Made by a program: the position numbers and the translations under genes. Below the pieces are notes generated by a model. The model saw only the letters and a list, made by a program, of their open reading frames with translations. It ran no database searches and had not been told where the DNA came from. From Halegenticoccus soli (lineage in GTDB: Archaea > Halobacteriota > Halobacteria > Halobacteriales > Haloferacaceae), in contig NZ_PEND01000013.1 in NCBI RefSeq assembly GCF_002844195.1, forward strand, positions 1 through 47,805: a stretch of DNA of 47,805 nucleotides, written 5' to 3'. Positions 2,816-39,650 of this stretch are shown piece after piece (within the stretch, counting starts at the first letter, position 1; each line of letters begins with the position of its first letter).

Positions 2816-5629
2816 ATGCCAGCATCTTCGAACGGGAGTGTCGTGCGACGGCTCCACGAACTGGGCACCGAAGATGTCGGCGTAGCCGGCGGCAAGGGTG
2901 CGAACCTATCCGCGCTGGCACGGGCGGGCCTCCCTGTCCCACAGGGGTTCGTCGTCACGACCGCCACCTACCGGGACCTCGTCGAGCCGCCCCGGATTCG
3001 GGAGGCAATCGATCGACTCGACGCGCTCGACGCCGCCGACACCGACACCCTCGCCGCGGCCGCGGCCGAACTCCGGTCGCTCATCCAGAGCCGGGAGCTC
3101 GGCGCGTCCGTCGAGACGGCGGTCGCCGACGCGATGGCGTCGTTCGAGAGCGCCGATTCCTTCGCCGTCCGGTCGAGCGCCACGGCCGAGGACCTGCCGA
3201 GCGCGTCGTTCGCCGGCCAGCACGAGACGTTCCTGGGCGTGGCGAGCGCCGACGTCCTCGACCGCGTCCGCGACTGCATGGCCAGTCTCTTCACCGACAG
3301 AGCGGTCACCTACCGGGCTCGCAACGGCGTCTCCCACGCCGACGCGGAGATGGCTGTCGTCGTCCAGCCGATGGTCGACGCGGCGGCCGCAGGCGTCCTC
3401 TTCACCGCGGACCCCGCGACCGGGAACCGACACGTCTCGGCAGTCGACGCGAGTTTCGGTCTCGGGGAGAGCATCGTCGCCGGCGACGTCACGCCTGATC
3501 ACGCGCTCGTGGACGCGCGGACCGACGAGGTGCTGGAGTACACCGTCGGCACGAAGACGATCGCCGTCGAGTTGCACGGGGACAGCACCGCGGGCGAGGG
3601 AACGTCGGGGATCGAAACCGAGGAGACGCCGACCGACGAAGGGGGCGGGATCAGGCGAGTCGAACTGCCGTCGGACCAACGGGAGTCGCGCGTGCTCACC
3701 GACGACCAGCTTCGCACGCTCGCCGGACTCGGTGAGCGGGTCGAAACGCTGCTCGGCGCGCCACAGGACGTCGAGTGGGCGCTCGCCGACGGGCACTTCG
3801 TTCTCCTGCAGTCCCGCCCAATCACGTCGTTGTTCCCGCGTCCGTCACCACCACCTGCCGACGACCGCCTCCACGTCTACGTCAGCATGGGCCACATGCA
3901 GGCGATGCCGGAGGCGATGCCACCGCTCGCCCGCGACGTCTGGCGGACCTATACCGGAAACGCACTCTCAGCCCTGGGTTTCGATGATTCCCTCCGCAAT
4001 CCGACGATCGAGGCCGGCGGGCGGATCTTCGTCGACGTCACCCCGTTCCTGCGCCACCCCTGGCTGCGATCCCGGCTGATCGAACGAATCGCCGCGATAA
4101 ACGAACCCATCTCCGCCGGGCTCGCCGCTATCGTCTCGCGACGCCCCGAGGAGTTTACGTCCCGCGGCGTCACCGTCGGCGCACTCCCGGGACACGTCGC
4201 GACGGCTGGGCGAGTAGCTCGACTGCTCGGCCCTGCAGTCCCGCGTATCGCTCGGAACCTTCTCGGTGCGTTGGCCGGCCGCGGGCCCACCCCCGACGAC
4301 GAGTCCTGGGCTCGCATGGGCGACCTGTTCGCCGGACAGGTCACCGACGCACCGACCCCCGAAGCCCGGGCCCGCGCCGTGTTCGAGACCATCGACTTCG
4401 GGCGTTTCTTCCGAGAGGCCTATCCCCGAATCAGCCCGTTGTTCCTCGCGTTCGCGCTCGGTGGCTGGCTCGCGCGGGCGTACCCCGATCAGCCCGAGGA
4501 CGTGAACGCGATCGGCCGAGGGTTCGAACGCGACGTCGTCACCCGCATCAACCTCGGCCTCGGAGACCTCGCCGACGTCGCCCGAGACCACCCGCGGGTC
4601 GCCGCGGCCCTGCGGGACGGCGCCTCCCTCGGGGACCTGGAGGACGTAGACGGCGGCGAGGCCTTCCGTGACGCGTTCGAGGGATTCCTCGCCGAGTTCG
4701 GACACCGTGGCACCGGCGAGATCGACCTCAGCAGGCCGCGCTGGCGCGAAGATCCGTCCGTGCTCCTCGCCGTCGTCCGGGCGAACCTCGCGGACGAGGC
4801 GGCGGGCGACCACCGCGAACGCATCCGGCGGCTCGCCGAGGAGGCCGAGGCGGCCGCCGCGCGCCTCGAAGCGCATGCCGACCACGGCCTGCTCGGCCCG
4901 CTTCGCCGCCGCTACGTCCGCCGGCTCATCCGCACGTACCGCGACACGGTCTACCTCCGGGAGTACCCCAAACAGGAGGCCGCCCGGGCGTTCACCGCGT
5001 GGCGGACGGCGCTGCTTGATGCTGGGGAACTGCTCGCCGCCGATGGACGACTCGACCGGCCGGACGACGTCTGGTATCTCCACAGGGACGAACTGTTCGA
5101 CGCGCTCGATGACGAGCGCGTGGACGTCGACATCGCCGCCCGCCGCCGGGAACACGCACGGAACGCCGACCTGGACGCCCCGCCCGTGTTGACGAGCGAG
5201 GGGGAAGCCGTCCGTGGGCAGGTGGACCGCGGAATGGTCCCCGAGGGGGCGCTTGTCGGTACCGGCGTGTCGTCGGGCGTCGTCGAGGGGGTGGCCCGCG
5301 TCGTCCGCGACCCGGCGGCCGCGACGGTGGAGCGCGGCGAGATACTCGTGGCGCCCTCGACCGATCCCGGGTGGACACCGCTGTTCCTGAACGCCGCCGG
5401 GCTGGTTTCCGAAGTCGGCGGCTCCGTCAGTCACGGTGCGCTCGTCGCCCGAGAGTACGGCCTGCCCGCCGTCGTTTCCGTGCCAGACGCGACGAAGCGG
5501 ATTCGGACCGGACAACGCATCCGTCTCGATGGAACCCGTGGCACGGTTGAACTGCTCGACGGACGGCCGGCGACCGCCGACGCGGAGCACGTCGAGCACC
5601 CCGAAACCGGTTCGGGTGGGGTCGAGTAG
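2816..5629 (+). CDS. PEP synthase / rifampicin-phosphotransferase-like three-domain enzyme
   Basis: This protein has 937 residues from ATG 2816. The N-terminal third is a pyruvate-phosphate-dikinase ATP-grasp domain, recognisable by GGKGANLSALARAGLPVPQGF, the FAVRSSATAEDLPSASFAGQ block and a QSRPITSL end near residue 340. A long central region of about 450 residues has no motif I can name. The C-terminal domain is PEP-utiliser-like, with GGSVSHGALVAREYGLPAVV carrying the phospho-histidine (His873). The family moves phosphate from ATP through a swivelling histidine to pyruvate or a small molecule. True PEP synthases are shorter and carry a conserved C-terminal PEP/pyruvate-binding barrel, which I do not see. 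A phosphotransferase of the rifampicin-modifying type or an uncharacterised subfamily is therefore more likely; the substrate is unknown. It ends 45 bases before a truncated permease. Confidence 0.75.
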   Translation: MPASSNGSVVRRLHELGTEDVGVAGGKGANLSALARAGLPVPQGFVVTTATYRDLVEPPRIREAIDRLDALDAADTDTLAAAAAELRSLIQSRELGASVETAVADAMASFESADSFAVRSSATAEDLPSASFAGQHETFLGVASADVLDRVRDCMASLFTDRAVTYRARNGVSHADAEMAVVVQPMVDAAAAGVLFTADPATGNRHVSAVDASFGLGESIVAGDVTPDHALVDARTDEVLEYTVGTKTIAVELHGDSTAGEGTSGIETEETPTDEGGGIRRVELPSDQRESRVLTDDQLRTLAGLGERVETLLGAPQDVEWALADGHFVLLQSRPITSLFPRPSPPPADDRLHVYVSMGHMQAMPEAMPPLARDVWRTYTGNALSALGFDDSLRNPTIEAGGRIFVDVTPFLRHPWLRSRLIERIAAINEPISAGLAAIVSRRPEEFTSRGVTVGALPGHVATAGRVARLLGPAVPRIARNLLGALAGRGPTPDDESWARMGDLFAGQVTDAPTPEARARAVFETIDFGRFFREAYPRISPLFLAFALGGWLARAYPDQPEDVNAIGRGFERDVVTRINLGLGDLADVARDHPRVAAALRDGASLGDLEDVDGGEAFRDAFEGFLAEFGHRGTGEIDLSRPRWREDPSVLLAVVRANLADEAAGDHRERIRRLAEEAEAAAARLEAHADHGLLGPLRRRYVRRLIRTYRDTVYLREYPKQEAARAFTAWRTALLDAGELLAADGRLDRPDDVWYLHRDELFDALDDERVDVDIAARRREHARNADLDAPPVLTSEGEAVRGQVDRGMVPEGALVGTGVSSGVVEGVARVVRDPAAATVERGEILVAPSTDPGWTPLFLNAAGLVSEVGGSVSHGALVAREYGLPAVVSVPDATKRIRTGQRIRLDGTRGTVELLDGRPATADAEHVEHPETGSGGVE

Positions 5630-6213: not shown

Positions 6214-6395
6214 TCGAAAGGAGCCGGTCGAAACGCGGTAGAAATCCCACCCGCCGAAACGCCGGTCTCCCGTGCGCGTTCATGGACGGGGTAGACGCGA
6301 TCGGCGACCGCCTCTGCACCGTAGCGGATGAATCGCTCCGATTTCGAGCGGTGCCGGGCGTCCTCATCGCCCTGTTCGGCCGAGAGCGCATCGGG

Positions 6396-7697
6396 CTACG
6401 GCCAGAGCCCTCGTGCTTCGTGTGCTTCCGCGATACGGGACAGCGCGACGATGTAGGCCGCATCGCGCCAAGTGACGTCACGCCGCTCGAACTCCGATCG
6501 AACCGCCCCCCAGGCGGCCCGCATCTCCGCTTCGAGTTCGTCGTTCACCCGTTCGAGCGACCACGCTCGCCGATTGATGTCCTGGAGCCACTCGAAGTAG
6601 CTCACCGTGACACCGCCGGCGTTGGCGAGAATATCGGGAACCACCGCAACGTCTCGCTCGGCGAGGATCGAATCGGCCGTGGAAGTAGTCGGCCCGTTCG
6701 CACCTTCGACGACGAGATCCGCGGCAATCGCCGCCGCGTTCTCCTTTGTGATCACGTTCCCCAGCGCTGCGGGAATGAGTACGTCGACGTCGAGCGTGAG
6801 CAGTTCGTCGTTCGAAATGACGTCGTCCGCATATGTGGTGACGGCCTCCGGCTCCTCGTCGTGCGAGGGGACTGAGGCCGTATCGATCCCCTCCGGTTCG
6901 TACATCGCCCCATTCACGTCGCTGATCGCGACGACTGTCGCACCCCAGTCGTCGAGTAGTCGGGCAGCATTCGCTCCGACGCTCCCGTAGCCCTGGACCG
7001 CAACTGTCGTCTCCTCGAGCTGGCGGTCGTAGTACTCACAGACGAGCTGCGTGACGATCGCAACGCTTCGTCCGGGGGCTTCTTCACGGCCTTCGCTGCC
7101 GCCGACGACCGGCGGCTTGCCGGTGACGACGCCGGGCGTCGTTTCGCCCTCCTGCATCGAGTACGCGTCCATCAGCCACGCCATCGTCCGGGGATCCGTC
7201 CCCATGTCCGGGGCGGGAATGTCCTGGTTGGGGCCGATGACGTCACGGATCTCCTGTGCGAATCGACGCGTCAGCCGCTCTTTCTCTGCCGAACTCAGCT
7301 CCTTCGGGTTGACAGCCACACCGCCCTTGGCGCCCCCGAACGGGAGATCCATGACCGCGCACTTCCAGGTCATCCACATGCCGAGCCCGACACATTCGTC
7401 TCTGGTCACCTCGGGGTGGTATCGAAGCCCACCTTTGTACGGCCCTCTGACGCTATCGTGTTGGGCCCGATAGCCGGTGAACACCTCGACCGTCCCGTCG
7501 TCTCGTTCGATCGGGACCGTTACCTCGTGGACCTTCTTCGGGTACCTGAGCCGTTCGACGATACTCGGGTCAATCTCGAGTCGAGTAGCGGCGTGAGACA
7601 GCTGTCGGCGGGCCGTTTCGAGCGCCGATTCCGACTCCGTCGATTCTGCCGGTGCGTCTCCGGACCCGTCGTGGTCGCTCCTAGACGTCGATGCCAT
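6396..7697 (-). CDS. gdhA: Glutamate dehydrogenase (NAD(P)-dependent)
   Basis: This 433-residue enzyme starts at ATG 7697 ([10 protein letters not shown]); a longer reading frame upstream overlaps the zinc-ribbon gene and is not needed. Family signatures are [20 protein letters not shown] (substrate-binding region), the catalytic-lysine block [15 protein letters not shown], the [10 protein letters not shown] segment and the Rossmann motif [16 protein letters not shown] of the nucleotide-binding domain. It interconverts glutamate and 2-oxoglutarate plus ammonia in the cytoplasm, hexameric in relatives. Length is normal for archaeal GDH and nothing looks broken. It follows a 47-residue zinc-ribbon gene by 2 bases, so the two are almost certainly co-transcribed. 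Together with the amino-acid oxidases and asparaginase it gives the element a nitrogen-catabolism flavour. Confidence 0.95.
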
Positions 7698-7699
7698 GG

Positions 7700-7843
7700 T
7701 TATTCGAGCGGCATCTGCCGATTTCGCATCGGTTCGCCACAGTCGGGACACCGACCGGGGTTGTTTTCAGCGACGATGATGTTCCCACACTCGAAGCACT
7801 CGTACGGACTTTCTTCGCCGGGAGTCGTCTCGATATCTCTCAT
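7700..7843 (-). CDS. Small zinc-ribbon (rubrerythrin-like) protein
   Basis: This is a 47-residue protein beginning at ATG 7843. It has two CxxC knuckles, [10 protein letters not shown] and RCPDCGEPM, the arrangement of a rubredoxin/rubrerythrin-type or zinc-ribbon fold, and little else. It ends 2 bases before the gdhA start, so it is the first gene of a two-gene unit. Similar stand-alone ribbons are common in haloarchaea and are usually listed as rubrerythrin-like domain proteins. Whether it binds iron or zinc, and whether it contacts glutamate dehydrogenase, is unknown. Confidence 0.82.
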
Positions 7844-7955
7844 GGTTGGCCACGAGCGCCGGCAGGCGATCTGGGGCACTCTACACGGGAGTAATAAGTG
7901 TCTAAGGGAATAATCGGGGGTTTACTACCAAACCGCTCTCTGAATCCGTGGTTCG

Positions 7956-14761: not shown

Positions 14762-14877
14762 TTCTACGGTCGCCTCTCTCCCGGTAATCCACTGAGACGG
14801 TGCATACAGAACTGTCCAGGAGGTAACGGGACTCACCTTGGCACAAAAAGTAGAACGGGCCACCGGTTCGGTCAACG

Positions 14878-15315
14878 TTACGCGCAGTTCGCCTCACAGC
14901 GGGAGACATCTGGATTGCCGTCCTTCAGGGTGATATCCTCGAGGACGAACCCGATGTCGTCGAACTTGACCGTGACGTCACACACCGTGTAGACGGTGTC
15001 GTTCCACGTGAGGTGGAGTCCGTAGATGCGGAACTCCGCGTTCTCGACGAGGTACGCTCGGTGATCGATGTGCGCGTCGGGCAAGCCGGGGCCGACCACC
15101 GACACGTGCTCCCAGGCGAAGACAGCGTCCTCGATCACGATTGTCTCGTTGATGAGCTTCACCTCGTCTGCACCTTCAGCCGGCGGTTCGCCCGCTGCGG
15201 TCATGCTGAACCCGATGAGTACCACACCGAGTAGCATCGCAACGACGACGAGGCTAACTACGGCTGAGATGGCACTCAAGGCTGTTCGTATCACTGGTAT
15301 ACACCTCGATTGCAT
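14878..15315 (-). CDS. Membrane-anchored or secreted protein of unknown function
   Basis: This 145-residue protein starts from ATG 15315. An N-terminal hydrophobic helix (AISAVVSLVVVAMLLGVVLI) precedes an extracellular-type domain of alternating strands: ETIVIEDAVFAWEHVSVVG, DHRAYLVENAEFRIYGLHL, YTVCDVTVKFDDIGFVLEDI, ending in CEANCA. Three Cys in the last 40 residues could form a disulfide. I recognise no family. The region upstream contains the long non-coding stretch before the beta-helix gene. Confidence 0.6.
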   Translation of the reverse strand: MQSRCIPVIRTALSAISAVVSLVVVAMLLGVVLIGFSMTAAGEPPAEGADEVKLINETIVIEDAVFAWEHVSVVGPGLPDAHIDHRAYLVENAEFRIYGLHLTWNDTVYTVCDVTVKFDDIGFVLEDITLKDGNPDVSRCEANCA

Positions 15316-32174: not shown

Positions 32175-32472
32175 CGTAGTCACCAGCAGTGTAGGGTTCC
32201 CACACTACAGTTACCTAGTGATAGGCCGCGGCAGTTTAATGCACTTCCTGTTGCTTTGTCGCCGCGTATCTACCATCGAAACCTTCGATTCAAAAGTGCT
32301 CCCTCTGTCCAGTAACTGTCGGGGGAACATACGGTTCGACTTGACCCGTTGGGGAACGGACAGCGAGAATCCGTTGTCTGACCCCTACAGGTAAAACACT
32401 GGGTTGCCGTACGATCTCCCGTCTCTCTCGAAGCTACCGATACTCACACAACAGTAATGACTCTGGAACGCG

Positions 32473-32482
32473 TTGTGCACAA
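32473..32482 (+). promoter_or_regulatory. Candidate TTGTGCACAA operator before the DUF302 gene
   Basis: This is a perfect 10-base palindrome ending 1 base before ATG 32484. It repeats the half-site sequence of the inverted repeat at 23311-23329. Its position supports 32484 rather than 32457 as the start of the DUF302 gene and suggests control by the TrmB-like regulator. Confidence 0.5.
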
Positions 32483-32483
32483 T

Positions 32484-32870
32484 ATGGCGTACACCACGCA
32501 AGAACGAGTCACAGGAAAGTTCGATGATGTTGTCGCGCGGACGATATCGGCTCTAGAAGACGAGGGGTTCGGGGTTCTCTGTGATATCGACGTCCAAGCG
32601 ACCTTCGCCAAAAAACTCGACAAGGAATTCCGTCAGTACCGGATTCTCGGCGCGTGCAATCCCCAACTCGCCTATCAGGGGCTCGAAGACGAGATCGAGC
32701 TCGGTGCACTCCTGCCGTGTAACGTCATCGTGTACGAGGAGGACGATGGGACGGTCGTGGTTAGCGCGGTTGATCCGGGCCGACTTGTCGGTATCACAGA
32801 CAACCCCGACCTTGACTCGATTGCCGAGGATGTCTCCGAGCGATTCGAGCGCGCACTCGAGTCGCTGTGA
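32484..32870 (+). CDS. DUF302 protein
   Basis: This protein has 128 residues from ATG 32484; an ATG at 32457 would read through a palindrome. The DUF302 pattern is clear: KFDDVVARTISALEDEGFGV, then LCDIDVQATFAKKLDKEFRQ, the RILGACNPQLAYQGL core with Cys, and a LLPCNVIVYEEDDGTVVVSAV strand pair. DUF302 proteins are small stand-alone proteins often encoded beside sulfur or copper genes; their activity is unknown. Its stop overlaps the GTG start of the multicopper oxidase (GTGA), so the two are translated together, and the palindrome before the gene would control both. Confidence 0.85.
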   Translation: MAYTTQERVTGKFDDVVARTISALEDEGFGVLCDIDVQATFAKKLDKEFRQYRILGACNPQLAYQGLEDEIELGALLPCNVIVYEEDDGTVVVSAVDPGRLVGITDNPDLDSIAEDVSERFERALESL

Positions 32871-34381
32871 GTGACCAGCTGTCACCCTCACGCCGCCGAT
32901 TTCTCCAGATGCTGAGCGGAGCGGGCGTGAGCGCACTCGCAGGATGTTCGACAAGCGACAACTCACCGTCAACCGGGAACGCTCCGACTCTACCACCGCG
33001 TCCAGGCCCTTCTGAGCCGGCAGATGTGACCGCCGCACTACGTGCAGCACCGGGGCGGATCCAGCCGAGTGCAGACACGTCCGCTACGACCTGGCTCTAC
33101 GACGGGGAGTTCCCAGGTCCGGAACTCCGAGTGAGAGAAGGCGACGTGTTCGAAGTCGAGTTGACTAACGAACTCTCGGAGGGGATGACGATCCACTGGC
33201 ACGGCATCCCTGTGTCCAATGGGATGGACGGCGTTCCAAACGTGACTCAACAGCCAGTCACGTCTGGGAATTCATTTAGCTACAAATTCCGGGCAGAGCC
33301 CGCCGGCACGTACTTCTATCACAGCCACGTCGGCCTCCAGCTTGACCGTGGACTCCTCGCGCCGCTCGTCATCGAGGAACCTGACCCACACGTCGCATAC
33401 GACCGTGAGTATACTGTCGTCATTGACGATTATCTCAAGCGGTCGCCACAGCCGCTCTCGGAGTCTGGTTCCGAGGGCGGTCCATCAGGTAGTCAGGTGC
33501 CGCAAAGCGACGGCGGTCCCGGTGGGATGGGTGGTGGAGGTCCTGGTGGAATGGGCGGAGGTATGGGTGGCGGCCCCGGTGGAATGGGTGGTGTGATGGC
33601 TGCCAGACGGCCGCCGTACGCCGGGCTTCTTCTCAATGGTCGTTTGCCGACCGATCCGCGAACGTTCACGGTCCGGGAGGGAGAACGCGTCCGTTTTCGG
33701 TTCATCAACGCGAGCAGTGCGACACTCTTTCGGGTGCAGGCGGCTGGACATCCGCTCCGGATCACGCACGCTGATGGCCGTCCAGTCACCCCGGTTACCG
33801 TCGACTCGTTCGCTTTCGGATCCGGAGAACGCTACGATGCGATTGTCGCGGCCGATAATCCTGGCGCGTGGGAAATCCGAGCCGCGGCCGTCGATGGAGA
33901 CGAACCCCCTGCGAAAGCAATTCTCACATACGGCGGAAGTGAGCCACCCCAGTCACCGACACCACCATCAGCGGACGGAAACCAGCTGTCGTACAGCGAC
34001 CTCCAAGCGATCTCACCGCTCGACGGCGTGGATGGCAGTCCAGATCGAACGTTTGACCTGACGCTCTCGGCCGGCCAGCGATCCAACGAGTGGGCGATCG
34101 ACGGCCGAGCATATCCTGATGCGGATCCGTTTCGTGTCCAGAAAGGAGAGCACGTCCGAATCAGAATGGTGAATCACAGTCCTGTGATCCATCCGATGCA
34201 CCTGCACGGACACTTCTTCCAAGTGCAGGACGCCGTCAAGGACACCGTCGTTGTCCCCGGACACATGGGCGAAGTGACCTTCGACTTCGTCGCCGACAAC
34301 CCTGGGAGCTGGCTGTTCCACTGTCATAATCTCTATCACCTTGAGGCAGGAATGGCTCGCGTCATCCGGTATGTCGAGTAG
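32867..34381 (+). CDS. Multicopper oxidase with Gly/Met-rich insertion
   Basis: This 504-residue lipoprotein starts from GTG 32867, inside the stop of the DUF302 gene. The leader [22 protein letters not shown] is a Tat signal with a lipobox Cys27. Copper sites are complete: IHWHGIP (His110, His112), YHSHVG (His152, His154), [10 protein letters not shown] (His442, His445, His447) and [13 protein letters not shown] (His485, Cys486, His487, His491, Met496), where Cys486, His442, His491 and Met496 form the type 1 centre. Between domains, residues about 203-245 are an insertion of Gly-Gly-Met repeats not typical of laccases, which could bind or feed copper. It probably oxidises cuprous copper or phenols outside the cell. 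A copper-ATPase remnant follows. Confidence 0.93.
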
Positions 34382-34517: not shown

Positions 34518-34759
34518 CGTCGACGATTTCCACGGCTGGGTCACCGGAAGCAGGATAGTGAACACTAGACCGTCGGGAGCAAACGACCGCTCTCTCTTTG
34601 ATTACAGAGTGGTCGTGAATACGGCGACGGCGGAGAGACGGGCGCGCTGACGCCCTCAACCGCAAGAGAAGAACCTGTCTTATTAAACGATGGTACCGTT
34701 TCCAGACACAGAAATTCCTCTTAGCAGATTTAGGAACCGTGGGGAGTAGGGGACACGTC

Positions 34760-35776
34760 ATGGCGAACACTCACTGGGGTCGACGTCGAATTCTCAAACT
34801 CGCTGGTCCAGCGTTCTTTCTCGGCCTTGCAGGCTGTAGTTCACAACGGGACGACGCAGCGCCACAGTCAACGCCGGCCACCTCTCGCTCACCGCCGGCA
34901 AATGAATCGTCCGAAACGACTCCAACGCCAACTGAGACGGCACAAACCACTGAAACTGAACAACCGACTGAGACTCCGGGGTACGTCGAATACCACTGGC
35001 ACGGACAGCTGTTTTTCGAAATAGACGGAAAGCTGCTTGATTTCACCCAGCCACGGTACTTCCTCGAAACACTCGAGGCCGAGCACCCAGAAACGGTCTA
35101 CTTTCACTTCCACGAATCTGCGCACGGACCGAACGAGTGGAGCAATGAGAAGAAAGTCGTCACCTTTGAGCAGGGGCTCAATTTGCTTCCCGGGATCGCA
35201 TATCGGCAAGGCGCGAACGGGAATCACGTCGTAACGCACGAGGGAACGACCTATCGGGAGACCGACGCCGGCACGACTATCTCGATCGCCGAGGGAACAC
35301 GGGAGATCGATCCGGCCCAACACGACATACAGCACGGCGATGAGCTCTGGGTTCGTACCGAAACCTCACACTCGAAGTCAGCCACGTCTGAGACATCAGG
35401 CTTGCTCCTCGTCGATGTCAATAACCACCGTATTGACTTCTCTCATCGAAAGTACCAGAATATAGAATCCGATCGCTTCCGGTTTGAAGCCAGCTCAGCA
35501 CCGTACTATCGCTGGAGAAGCACCGAGTCAGTCACTCTCGAAGAGGTGTTCTCTATCTTGCCTGATGTCCGCTACGAACGAGGGCGTGGTGGACACAGTC
35601 TTACCTATTCTGGAGACGATGCACATAGTGGCACCTATCGACAGGCGGATGCCGGGACAACGATCACTTTCCGGCAGCGGATGACGGACATTGATCCGGC
35701 CTCGTATCAGTTAAAAAACGGAGATATTATCTGGGTGTACGTTCACACAGACACGGCACCTGATAACGAACACTAA
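34760..35776 (+). CDS. Tat lipoprotein with two tandem homologous His-rich domains
   Basis: This protein has 338 residues from ATG 34760. The leader GRRRILKLAGPAFFLGLAGC ends in a lipobox Cys26, followed by a Thr/Pro/Glu linker. Two copies of one domain of about 115 residues come next. The first has GQLFFEIDGKLLDFTQPRYF, VVTFEQGLNLLPGIAYRQGA and YRETDAGTTISIAEGTREID. The second has GLLLVDVNNHRIDFSHRKYQ, VTLEEVFSILPDVRYERGRG and YRQADAGTTITFRQRMTDID. The first copy is richer in His (EYHWHGQ, YFHFHESAHG), which suggests metal binding, while the second has lost most of these. I do not recognise the family. Position after a multicopper oxidase and an ATPase remnant points to extracellular copper binding, by inference. 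Confidence 0.8.
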   Translation: MANTHWGRRRILKLAGPAFFLGLAGCSSQRDDAAPQSTPATSRSPPANESSETTPTPTETAQTTETEQPTETPGYVEYHWHGQLFFEIDGKLLDFTQPRYFLETLEAEHPETVYFHFHESAHGPNEWSNEKKVVTFEQGLNLLPGIAYRQGANGNHVVTHEGTTYRETDAGTTISIAEGTREIDPAQHDIQHGDELWVRTETSHSKSATSETSGLLLVDVNNHRIDFSHRKYQNIESDRFRFEASSAPYYRWRSTESVTLEEVFSILPDVRYERGRGGHSLTYSGDDAHSGTYRQADAGTTITFRQRMTDIDPASYQLKNGDIIWVYVHTDTAPDNEH

Positions 35777-36128
35777 CAGCAACTCTGGCGGCGTCTTCGT
35801 TAGTGCTCCGCTGGGGACTAGCGACTGTTGGTTGGATACCTCCTATTGAATGGGAGCGGTGGGCATCCCAAGCGAGACGATATCTACTCGAACGGATCTA
35901 GCGACGAGCCGTTTTCGGAATGAGTCGATGAATCGCTCCTGTGGGTTCCTGGCCACGGCCTCTCGGCGCTGTTGACGAGTCGCCGAGTATGATACCGTCG
36001 GAGCGGTTGCTTCACCGTCGACACCCGTCCGCGGAATCGCTGAAAGCGCCAAGTCCTGTACCGCTACCGTTTCCAACTGGCGTTTGTGCGAGAGGGACGC
36101 GAAGGAACGTTACCCCCTCACGCGGGCG
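35777..36128. other. Intergenic region between convergent genes
   Basis: No gene is supported in these 352 bases. They separate the lipoprotein gene (+) from the His-rich membrane-protein gene (-). Short frames here are not protein-like. I see no strong terminator hairpin. Confidence 0.4.
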
Positions 36129-36914
36129 TTATGACGTGCCCGCCGATCTCTCCCCTGCCCAAAGGAGGTAGACGAGGATACCAATGAGGAGAAGTTGTGC
36201 TACTTTGTCAATACCTCCATACGTTTGCAGATGTGGCATGCCAGCCTTCCACCAGAGGACGAACTGTGTAGCTACGTATGGAATGCCAACGGCGTAGAGC
36301 AGGCGACGGTTGACACCCAGGAAGAACAGTACAGTTGCCCCGATGAATCCAAGTCCTGCGAGGAGCATCTGTACCTCACTATGCTGGAGGTAGAGGTAGA
36401 TGTGCACAGCCGCACTTACCAGGCTCAGTCCGATTACGGCAATATGCACGCTTTCGAGGTCCGAGAGGTGGTCTCGTCGTTTCCCGACCCAGTACGCCGG
36501 TGCCGTGGGAAGTGCTGCCACCGCTATTAATCCGATAATACCCGTCGCCCAGGTTAGCGGGTTCTCGGTGTGATGGCCACCACCGCTCGCTCCGTCATGG
36601 CGATCGTCGTTACTCTCGCCGGGGTGGTGCCCGTCATCTCCATTCGAATGCGTGACTCCGGGAGTCTCAGTGCGGCTGTGATGCCCATCGTCGGTATGGT
36701 GGTCACCACTCGCATCTGTCCCGTCGCGGCTGTCAGTCCCAGCAGCGTGATGATCGCCACCGTCACTGTGCCCGGTCGTGGTTTTGGATGCCGGCGTTGC
36801 CGTTCCGTTGCTGTGGTCTTCGTCGGCGAGGGCGGCACCGCTGGCAATAACTAGCAGTACCGTCAGGAGAACGACTAGTTTCGGAAGGTGTCGTCTGAGC
36901 GTGCGAAGCCTCAT
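36129..36914 (-). CDS. His-rich domain membrane protein
   Basis: This protein has 261 residues from ATG 36914 (six residues longer if ATG 36932 is used). A signal peptide or first helix (LPKLVVLLTVLLVIASGAAL) leads to an external segment of about 85 residues crowded with His, Asp, Gly and Ser (GDHHAAGT, GDHHTDDGHH, GHHPGESNDD, GGGHHTENP), and then four helices including LVSAAVHIYLYLQHSEVQML and LLAGLGFIGATVLFFLGVN. His-Asp repeats of this kind bind copper, zinc or nickel. The membrane part is not one I can name. It sits in the copper-linked stretch, and the His segment is the most obvious metal sponge in the window. Confidence 0.8.
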   Translation of the reverse strand: MRLRTLRRHLPKLVVLLTVLLVIASGAALADEDHSNGTATPASKTTTGHSDGGDHHAAGTDSRDGTDASGDHHTDDGHHSRTETPGVTHSNGDDGHHPGESNDDRHDGASGGGHHTENPLTWATGIIGLIAVAALPTAPAYWVGKRRDHLSDLESVHIAVIGLSLVSAAVHIYLYLQHSEVQMLLAGLGFIGATVLFFLGVNRRLLYAVGIPYVATQFVLWWKAGMPHLQTYGGIDKVAQLLLIGILVYLLWAGERSAGTS

Positions 36915-37250
36915 GTGCGGCTTGTGGTTCAATCATCGAAAGTAATACTATACGGTGCCTAAGCGGCGTTTGGAGACGTTTCGTTCTCTTTCGAGTAATC
37001 GATCCCACGAAGTGGATACGCTCTACCTCCTTTTTCGAACGACTATTTCATCTTCGCTCGTTCCGATACGTGTGTGGAGATAGCCTTCGGTCAGTTTCAA
37101 CGTATTCGCCTCACAGTGAGATACCAGTCCGCCAAGGTAAATAAGAGGGGTGTGGTTTTGCAGACTCTGTAAAGAGGCCGTTCTACTAATAAGTCGCCAC
37201 TACCAACACCCACTATCGTCGACTAAGAGCAACCGCGAATTCAACGTATC
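36915..37250. other. Divergent intergenic region
   Basis: This is an AT-richer 336-base gap between the His-rich protein gene (-) and the carbamoyltransferase gene (+), so it holds both promoters. No gene is seen. The end ACTAATAAGTCGCC, about 60 bases before the carbamoyltransferase ATG, is a weak TATA candidate. Confidence 0.4.
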
Positions 37251-39032
37251 ATGACCGCCTACACCCTCGCGTTCAAGCCCGCAATTGGTCTGTACGGCCA
37301 GCATGACCCTAGTGCCGCCCTCTTTGAGGCTGGGACGCCCGTCTTCGGCATCGAAGAAGAGCGCCTCTCCAGAAGCAAACATGCCGTCAATACGTTTCCA
37401 GAGCAAGCGATCGAGGCGTGTCTAGACCACCGTGATCTCGTGCTTTCCGACGTTGAACGGATACTTCTCCCGTACGATCCGCGGCTCCAGCGGAAGATTC
37501 TTCCTCACTACATCCGTGACGCGATGAGCCCGCCAGGAATCGTGGGAAAACTCTCTGCGTTGGAACAAACAGCGGTAACCCAAGCACAAGCACAGTTCAG
37601 GCCGGTTCATGAAATCACGTCACGATTGGCCGACATCGGGACGCCAGTTCCCCCTATCGAAACGAGGAGTCACCACGCGTGCCACGCCGCCAGTGCGTTC
37701 CACCCGTCTGGATTCGACCGGGCGCTTATCCTGACCATCGATGCAAAAGGAGAGTACGATTCGACTGTCGTGTGGTACGGCGATGAGACGGGCTTGAGAC
37801 GACTACGAACGTATGAGCATCCGAACAGCCTTGGGCTGTTCTTCGCGATCGTGACCGAGTACCTCGGCTATCGGATGTTCAACGGAGAGGGAAAGGTAAT
37901 GGGACTCGCACCCTACGGAAACGAAAATCCGGACATTGAACGCACGTTTCGACGCCTCGTCTCCACCGGCGTCGATTACGACGTAACCGACCTCACTAAA
38001 CGGTGGGGAACCGACCACGGGATAGCCCAACTTGAGCGAGCCTTTGGACGGCCTCGAAACGAATCGCCGGGGGACTTTGACCAGTGGGAAAAGAACTTCG
38101 CATACGTTGCACAGAAACTCCTCGAGGAGACAGTCCTCGATATCGTTGAGACGTACTCTTCTCGATTAGGTGTCCAGAAAGTTGGACTCGCTGGCGGAGT
38201 CGCGCTCAATTGCAAACTGAATAAACGCATCCGGGAGTCTCCTCGCGTAGACGATGTCTTCATTCAACCTGTCGCTCACGACGCTGGACTGGCCCTGGGT
38301 GCGGGGTGGCTCGACCAATCACCCTCCGAGGTGCCGAAAATGACGACTGTCTACCTCGGGCCGGAATTCTCCGACGAAGATATCCGTGAGATGCTAGAAA
38401 CGAACAAGATTCCGTACGGCAAACCAGCCAATCTGGAGCGGTACGTGGCTGAACGGTTGGCTAACGGGGCGCTCGTTGGCTGGTTCCAAGGGCGGTTAGA
38501 GATGGGGCCACGTGCACTCGGGAACCGGAGCATCCTTGCTGATCCCCGGACCGTCGAATCACGAGACAGCGTCAATCGGTTTGTCAAACACCGGGAAGAG
38601 TGGCGACCGTTCGCTCCGTCACTGCTTGAAGAAGCAGCACCAGACTACCTCGAAAACGCCGCCCCATCGCCGTTCATGATAGACGCGTTCCGCGCGAGGG
38701 ACGAACGGAAGAACGACATCGCAGCGGTGCTCCATCCGGCAGACGGTACGACTCGCCCGCAGACAGTAACTGCTGAGCAAAACCCCCGCTACTACCGCCT
38801 CATCTCCAAATTTGAATCGATTACCGGCGTACCGGTGCTCCTCAATACCTCGTTCAACGACCACGCGGAACCCATCGTAACGACGCCGGTAGAAGCGCTC
38901 AAAGACTTCTACGGAATGGGGCTCGATACGCTGGTTCTAGAGGATTTCGTCATAGAGAAAGCGCCAACGGAGGAGTCGGCCGGCGACATCACGGACCGGG
39001 GCTCTGCGATACTCAACCGGACTACCGAGTAA
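37251..39032 (+). CDS. NodU/CmcH-family carbamoyltransferase
   Basis: This protein has 593 residues from ATG 37251. An N-terminal ASKHA-type domain (YGQHDPSAALFEAGTPVFGI, SHHACHAASAFHPSGFDRAL, then LILTIDAKGEYDSTVVWYG) is followed by GLAGGVALNCKLNKRI, the QPVAHDAGLALGAGW block and a C-terminal YrdC-like carbamoyltransferase domain with GWFQGRLEMGPRALGNRSIL and LLNTSFNDHAEPIVTTPVEAL. The family O-carbamoylates sugars, antibiotics or aminoglycosides from carbamoyl phosphate. Haloarchaeal members usually sit among cell-surface glycan or secondary-metabolite genes, but here neighbours are copper and His-rich proteins, so the substrate is open. Confidence 0.9.
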   Translation: MTAYTLAFKPAIGLYGQHDPSAALFEAGTPVFGIEEERLSRSKHAVNTFPEQAIEACLDHRDLVLSDVERILLPYDPRLQRKILPHYIRDAMSPPGIVGKLSALEQTAVTQAQAQFRPVHEITSRLADIGTPVPPIETRSHHACHAASAFHPSGFDRALILTIDAKGEYDSTVVWYGDETGLRRLRTYEHPNSLGLFFAIVTEYLGYRMFNGEGKVMGLAPYGNENPDIERTFRRLVSTGVDYDVTDLTKRWGTDHGIAQLERAFGRPRNESPGDFDQWEKNFAYVAQKLLEETVLDIVETYSSRLGVQKVGLAGGVALNCKLNKRIRESPRVDDVFIQPVAHDAGLALGAGWLDQSPSEVPKMTTVYLGPEFSDEDIREMLETNKIPYGKPANLERYVAERLANGALVGWFQGRLEMGPRALGNRSILADPRTVESRDSVNRFVKHREEWRPFAPSLLEEAAPDYLENAAPSPFMIDAFRARDERKNDIAAVLHPADGTTRPQTVTAEQNPRYYRLISKFESITGVPVLLNTSFNDHAEPIVTTPVEALKDFYGMGLDTLVLEDFVIEKAPTEESAGDITDRGSAILNRTTE

Positions 39033-39299: not shown

Positions 39300-39650
39300 A
39301 TGGCGCTCCAACAGATTTCCCACCTGACCGACGAGATGGCCGACTGCATCGACAACTGCTTCGAAGCAGCACAAGCGTGCGAATGGTGTGCCGATGAGTG
39401 TATCGGCCAGGGCGAAGAGATGGCTGAATGCGTTCGTCTCTGTCGCGATGTCGCCGACCTGACGACGGAGCACGCTCGGTTCATGGCCCGGAACTCGAAC
39501 TACAGCGCGGCGCTTGCGGAGGCTTGCGCCGAGGCCTGCGAGGAGTGCGCCGACGAGTGCGAACAGCACGACGACGAGCACTGTCAGGTCTGTGCGGACG
39601 TGCTCCGCGACTGCGCGGAGAGCTGCCGCACGATGATGCAGAAAGCCTGA
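39300..39650 (+). CDS. Four-helix-bundle copper-storage-like protein (Csp/DUF326)
   Basis: This protein has 116 residues from ATG 39300, with a TATA box (CATAAAG) 25-31 bases upstream. Fifteen Cys are arranged in CxxxC and CxxC steps along four helices (DCIDNCFEAAQACEWCADEC, ECVRLCRDV, EACAEACEECADECEQ, HCQVCADVLRDCAESC), the pattern of copper-storage proteins that line a bundle interior with Cu(I) thiolates. No leader peptide is present, so it is cytoplasmic. It would buffer Cu(I) alongside the oxidase encoded upstream. The gene is complete and isolated on its strand. Confidence 0.9.
   Translation: MALQQISHLTDEMADCIDNCFEAAQACEWCADECIGQGEEMAECVRLCRDVADLTTEHARFMARNSNYSAALAEACAEACEECADECEQHDDEHCQVCADVLRDCAESCRTMMQKA

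Follow-up and report, generated by a model that had tools for sequence, protein, structure and literature searches.

What does a lipoprotein built from two copies of one domain, only the first of which is rich in histidine, do beside a copper oxidase? The question is raised by a gene in a stretch of 47,805 nucleotides from the haloarchaeon Halegenticoccus soli (contig NZ_PEND01000013.1, positions 1 to 47,805; the whole stretch analysed is called the window here). A first-pass annotation had described the product as an extracellular lipoprotein with two tandem copies of an unrecognised domain and had proposed that the domain binds copper. The gene is laid out as follows.

34760..35776, plus strand: two-domain lipoprotein gene, ATG to stop, 338 amino acids; a longer reading from a GTG start at 34739 is open
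34760..34837, plus strand: Tat-like signal (RRR and a hydrophobic stretch) with the lipobox LAGC at its end, Cys26 (from the sequence)
34838..34975, plus strand: linker rich in Thr, Pro and Glu (from the sequence)
34982..35365, plus strand: domain 1, residues 75-202, predicted beta-grasp with the histidine cluster (BLASTP, model, alignment)
34994..35005, plus strand: HWHG (H79, H81), where strand 1 begins, invariant in 6/6 class A members
35102..35152, plus strand: FHFH...AHGPNEWSNEK (H116, H118, H122, W127, K131), invariant in 6/6 class A members outside the residues between FHFH and AHG
35393..35752, plus strand: domain 2, residues 212-331, predicted beta-grasp without the histidine cluster (BLASTP, model, alignment)
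35753..35773, plus strand: C-terminal tail with the end P-(D/E)-N-E-H (6/6 class A members)

Twin Arg and the AGC of the lipobox were read by eye in all six proteins of the group that we call class A (defined below), which supports their assignment as Tat-exported lipoproteins. At the level of sequence reading, the description of the product as an extracellular lipoprotein stands.

The two halves had also been described as aligned tandem copies that are diverging from each other. A BLASTP alignment of domains 1 and 2 (E 8e-20) spans 122 residues, with 31% identity and 54% positives, and their local alignment score was 170, against a mean of 28.2 (sd 4.7) and a maximum of 53 in 2000 shuffles of domain 2. 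One family profile matched each of the two copies separately. The annotation had named beforehand, as the outcome that would count against it, a structure prediction with no duplication; the AlphaFold model gave two separate domains, both beta-grasp. The comparison between copies, the model and the domain tree agree, and the duplication was borne out.

The model of both domains had a pLDDT of 86.6 and a pTM of 0.78, and domain 1 modelled by itself reached 95.1 and 0.88. In these models, strands at 7-16 and 54-58, a helix at 64-68/70 and strands at 91-94, 100-106 and 123-130 give the S1-S2-helix-S3-S4-S5 order of the beta-grasp fold. The leading structural matches to both domains were all beta-grasp. 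For both domains the best were 2v3n, a transcobalamin beta-domain (Z 8.6, rmsd 3.0, 96 aligned), and, with 91 residues aligned at Z 8.5 and rmsd 2.7, 3u7z, which is labelled 'putative metal binding protein'; chains of the ThiS/SAMP/Urm1 type and ubiquitin-like chains matched at about Z 5-6.8. With this aligner best Z values of 7-8 are common, and a Z near 8 barely exceeds the level of unmatched models; the strength of the fold assignment therefore lies in the leading rows coming from one family and in the coverage of the whole domain. A Foldseek search with the models returned nothing at E <= 0.001, and at the level of sequence neither the protein nor a 56-row profile matched a PDB entry at better than E 0.25.

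In the models, both domains are of the beta-grasp type and resemble the transcobalamin beta-domain. They share with DUF4430 and transcobalamin-type proteins (2v3n, 5np4, 3u7z) the predicted strand order, the best structural matches and a hairpin that is inserted after the helix and ahead of strand 3 (strands predicted at 74-78 and 84-88); a beta-hairpin before strand 3 is part of the definition of the transcobalamin-type group of the SLBB superfamily as given in section 6 of PMC1796856 and in a table in PMC1949818. In the passages of PMC1796856 consulted, histidine is not mentioned. The SLBB signature Gly in the turn before strand 3 was found in 60 of 72 unique domains of the family, domain 1 included. 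The second signature Gly, directly after strand 2, occurs in 32 of the 72, and domain 1 of the window protein differs from the group in having Lys at this place. Because one of the two signature glycines is missing, we describe the domain as resembling the SLBB group and have not filed it there.

That the domain was unrecognised holds for the window protein but not for its relatives. The window protein itself matched no Pfam family even at E 10, and NCBIfam gave chance-level matches to its signal and linker only. Two paralogues exceeded the Pfam ThiS cut-off of 22.5 bits (30.4 bits for L044 and 27.3 bits for L037), and 14 of 56 family domains matched ThiS at E <= 0.1. DUF4430 (PF14478) was matched by one of the 56 (E 0.0013) and not by the window protein, and was found in none of 59 haloarchaeal genomes scanned. 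When profiles were compared, that of the family aligned with the DUF4430 profile at a probability of 52% (E 1.4e-4, 61 columns; alignment A3, 21 of 25 loci, 22 having been processed and one dropped for stop codons) and with 19 ThiS-family rows at 68% (E 4.8e-5; alignment A4, 19 of 20 loci), values that give neither affiliation precedence. The ThiS, MoaD and SAMP sulfur carriers and modifiers are alike in being beta-grasp and in the Pfam ThiS matches of some family domains; unlike them, the window protein is predicted to be exported, lipid-anchored and doubled, and it ends in NEH and not in Gly-Gly. Kinship with cupredoxins or CopC was set aside, as neither was among the matches listed for the protein, an absence that is no proof.

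Relatives are widespread in the window's order. At E <= 1e-6 the profile of 56 domains hit 100 of the 293 genomes searched from this order; a single-sequence search hit 150 of the 293 at E <= 0.001, with some rows covering the signal region only. At the level of the phylum, five of 196 genomes matched, every one from the window's own order, and no relative outside the haloarchaea was found in these 196 genomes, a draw that held other genomes than some of the weaker-scoring ones in the 293-genome profile search. A full-length copy is missing from G456, a genome of the same genus. Family members carry the domain singly or doubled, and where an annotation was seen it was hypothetical or MoaD/ThiS (one class B paralogue is called 'MoaD/ThiS family protein'). 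Titles and abstract openings in the literature, with few subscription journals covered, held no description of the family or its function; in the main text of PMC9240420, which surveys the copper genes of Haloferax mediterranei, the words lipoprotein, MoaD and carbamoyl do not occur, nor do lipoprotein and secreted in PMC2948915.

Two doubled classes could be told apart by where the histidines lie. Class A, with the full cluster in domain 1, has six members: the window protein and those of L004 (Halomicroarcula rubra), L034, L035/L090 (Halorussus halophilus), L036 and L089 (Halorarius litoreus). Class B (n=12) has its cluster, HxHG, FHFE and WHAH, in the second domain and includes a paralogue in the window's own genome; the histidine placement in that protein (L044, gene 4292-5368, minus strand) and in 11 similar ones mirrors that of the window protein. 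A third doubled protein (L014/L041) has FHxH in both domains. Across the 72 unique domains of the tree, taken from 134 matched rows, G82 and W127 are present in all and H116 in 57. Alignment A1 comprised 15 two-domain proteins, those with longer loci, and A2 left out duplicate loci of the same gene.

The window protein has H79, H81, H116, H118 and H122 in domain 1 and a counterpart to none of the five in domain 2, as the annotation had noted. As a rule for class A this does not hold throughout: domain 2 of the Halorarius litoreus protein retains FHFH and AH, and by its sequence it appears to be an intermediate in site loss. In the tree, both class A domains group with single-domain proteins of the HxHG/FHFH kind, apart from class B (96/84). 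Since the tree splits the two classes, it favours separate duplications, after each of which one copy apparently lost the site, at opposite positions. An AU test rejected a tree in which the 18 histidine-keeping domains are held together (p 0.0225) and did not reject one in which the 18 histidine-poor domains are (p 0.137); a single origin of both doubled classes is disfavoured on these sequence comparisons.

All five histidines are identical in the six class A members. FHFH...AHGPNEWSNEK falls partly between strands 1 and 2 and partly on strand 2, and E126, W127 and E130, near the cluster, are also invariant. Many beta-grasp domains are adaptors, and it seemed conceivable that the two domains are protein-interaction modules whose histidines are structural or suit conditions at the surface. 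The cluster is indeed dispensable for the fold, as one domain in each doubled class lacks it. We nevertheless regard this explanation as improbable, because the five histidines are invariant in 6/6 members of a protein that otherwise varies (in class A, 86 of the 277 columns aligned over the mature part are invariant). The invariant histidines, together with fold relatives that bind cobalamin or are labelled as putative metal binding proteins, indirectly support metal binding by domain 1, and this part of the original proposal of copper binding is the better sustained. In the mature part of the six aligned class A proteins, the lipobox Cys was the only Cys or Met to be conserved. His-only sites fit Cu(II), Zn(II), Ni(II) or Co(II), not Cu(I). 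For copper in particular, the argument comes from the neighbouring genes. Those of the window are the following.

32457..32870, plus strand: DUF302 protein beside the oxidase (family match)
32867..34381, plus strand: CopA-type multicopper oxidase with a Tat-like signal (family matches)
36129..36932, minus strand: His-rich N-terminus and a DUF7475-like membrane part (DUF7475 E 2e-5, 25.2 bits, below the cut-off of 31.3)
37251..39032, plus strand: NodU-like carbamoyltransferase, partner of the class A lipoprotein (PF02543 E 2.2e-49, PF16861 E 3.3e-66)
39300..39650, plus strand: Csp1-like DUF326 protein for copper storage (TIGR04401 match at E 1.9e-9, short of the cut-off)

The copper oxidase that the annotation had placed close by is thus present as a CopA-type enzyme; it has a long Gly/Met-rich insert, which it shares with a relative on contig C7 of the same genome (L079). 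Copper-type genes were found near five of the six class A members. The L034 locus has a CopA-type oxidase, DUF302, a Csp-like DUF326 protein and ArsP; L090 has DUF302, an oxidase, thioredoxin, a plastocyanin-like protein and DUF411; L089 has three plastocyanin-like proteins and a Cu P-type ATPase; and L004 has a multicopper-oxidase-like ORF and a weak ZIP-like match. No copper gene was found at L036, either in an ORF scan or with copper queries over its 16 kb (the scan, shared with L004, covered 10 ORFs, eight of them from L036, apart from the flanks L123 and L124). Matches to the oxidase family number eight, four, two and two in four genomes, some of them being two pieces of one gene. As they are so few per genome, the closeness of an oxidase at such loci is unlikely to be due to chance, with the reservation that co-descent of the islands makes the loci dependent. 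The same queries found a copper-type neighbour at none of 11 class B loci, so that a tie to copper is not a property of the domain in itself. Gene neighbourhood at five of six loci makes copper the likely ligand.

These data bear on a second explanation, that domain 1 binds Zn, Ni or Co as part of a metal-scavenging surface lipoprotein and that the copper genes mark general metal-resistance islands. Zn or Ni would suit a His-only site equally well, the 11 class B loci gave no copper neighbour, and among the other genes of the window is one for an ArsP-like permease with a YHS domain, to which the weak ZIP-like neighbour at L004 may be added. Against this, copper-type genes recur at 5/6 class A loci, and we consider a metal other than copper unlikely.

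We slightly favour a model in which the class A protein takes part in copper handling by binding a metal, probably Cu(II), at a His-only site outside the cell, with domain 2 in a structural role. Tat would export the folded two-domain protein, and the lipid would anchor it in the membrane. The five histidines of domain 1, with the invariant E126, W127 and E130 nearby, would bind a divalent metal outside the cell, most likely Cu(II), given that no Cys or Met is conserved that could serve Cu(I). Domain 2, from the tandem duplication, would have lost the site and now be a structural or partner-binding half. Beside the CopA-type oxidase and the Csp-like storage protein, the protein may hold copper or hand it on, the direction of flow being presumed as well. 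Several results speak against this model: the lack of copper genes at L036 and at the class B loci, the missing full-length copy in G456, the failure of Foldseek to find a match and the scatter of the paired carbamoyltransferases described below. The working analogy is the CopA/CopC/Csp-type handling of copper outside the cytoplasm. It extends to a secreted candidate holder of copper beside a CopA-type oxidase; the fold is another one, and the candidate site is made of His only.

The oxidase was not retained as the constant partner of the lipoprotein, since a carbamoyltransferase is both closer and more constant. This enzyme has both the Carbam_trans_N and the Carbam_trans_C domain, like other NodU-like enzymes including StdF. 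Its gene adjoins that of the lipoprotein at five of the six class A loci with a gap of 2 to 18 bases, on the same strand in four and convergently in L089. The window's copy is 1474 bases downstream, beyond the minus-strand ORF. That ORF (36129-36932), which separates the lipoprotein gene from the carbamoyltransferase gene and is very rich in His in its N-terminal part, has a relative in the L034 island (14776-15225). The carbamoyltransferase was found in 51 of the 293 genomes at E <= 1e-100 and the class A lipoprotein in four, all four having both genes together, the window's with the gap. In a tree made from the last 600 residues (duplicate loci and ORFs under 500 aa left out), the six paired enzymes do not form a single clade, which indicates that the pairing was often lost or was made more than once. 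At 26 unpaired enzyme loci in other genomes (L050-L078 except L051, L066 and L067), 1.5-kb flanks gave no match to the copper-type queries; one of them, L076, matched the thioredoxin-like query. In the window's genome, both carbamoyltransferases at E <= 1e-100 are near a CopA-type oxidase. The second of these, on C7 (G000:C7:170378-172102; L079 4379-6148), is 79% identical to the window's and is directly followed by a second CopA-type oxidase (L079 about 6274-7899), with no lipoprotein of the family. In the preferred model, the adjoining carbamoyltransferase probably works in the same pathway as the lipoprotein.

A carA gene, for the small subunit of carbamoyl-phosphate synthase, lies just upstream of the pair on a Halorussus halophilus plasmid (L090, 10366-11424). 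This extra carA is a possible source of the substrate of the carbamoyltransferase.

The conserved enzyme could also point to a small organic molecule or a metal chelate as the ligand, corrinoid-like or a metallophore, which would sit in a transcobalamin-type cleft and be made or modified by the carbamoyltransferase. The closest solved folds are cobalamin carriers, carA stands beside the pair in Halorussus halophilus, and the hairpin predicted before strand 3 contacts the ligand in the transcobalamin clade as described in section 6 of PMC1796856. The invariant histidines, however, lie between strands 1 and 2 and not in this hairpin, and none of the neighbours examined is a transporter for chelate uptake. 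Such a ligand appears to us quite unlikely.

Alternatively, the lipoprotein might be the enzyme's own substrate, modified while still in the cytoplasm and ahead of export by Tat, for instance at Lys131 of NEWSNEK beside the histidine cluster or by way of recognition of the (D/E)NEH tail; the two genes would then form a maturation system giving an unusual, carbamoylated metal site at the surface. The gene pairing, the invariance of Lys131 and the tail in 6/6 members and the export of a folded protein would be consistent with this, and a NodU-like carbamoyltransferase, StdF, has been described as acting on a peptide lysine; in that account (PMC13174530) StdF differs in being fused to a peptidase and in having a RiPP precursor as its substrate. 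The same Lys is also present in the single-domain proteins L008 and L009, whose genomes (G045 and G022) are outside the 51 of 293 that bear the enzyme at E <= 1e-100, and the enzyme occurs in 51 genomes and the class A lipoprotein in four. Carbamoylation of the lipoprotein is accordingly very improbable in our judgement.

The fold is a known one and the histidine cluster a well-conserved feature; what is new beyond the sequence reading is the predicted beta-grasp fold, the wide haloarchaeal family and the carbamoyltransferase partner. A family present in roughly one in three of the sampled haloarchaeal genomes now has a predicted fold and a candidate metal site that can be tested. If confirmed, the site would represent a beta-grasp route to extracellular copper binding in archaea, and the paired domain without a site would serve as a natural internal control. 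The pairing also draws attention to an unexplained carbamoyltransferase within copper islands. An open stretch at 35829-36092 (minus strand), which follows the lipoprotein gene and precedes the ORF at 36129-36932, has no clear identity and is possibly the remnant of a gene.
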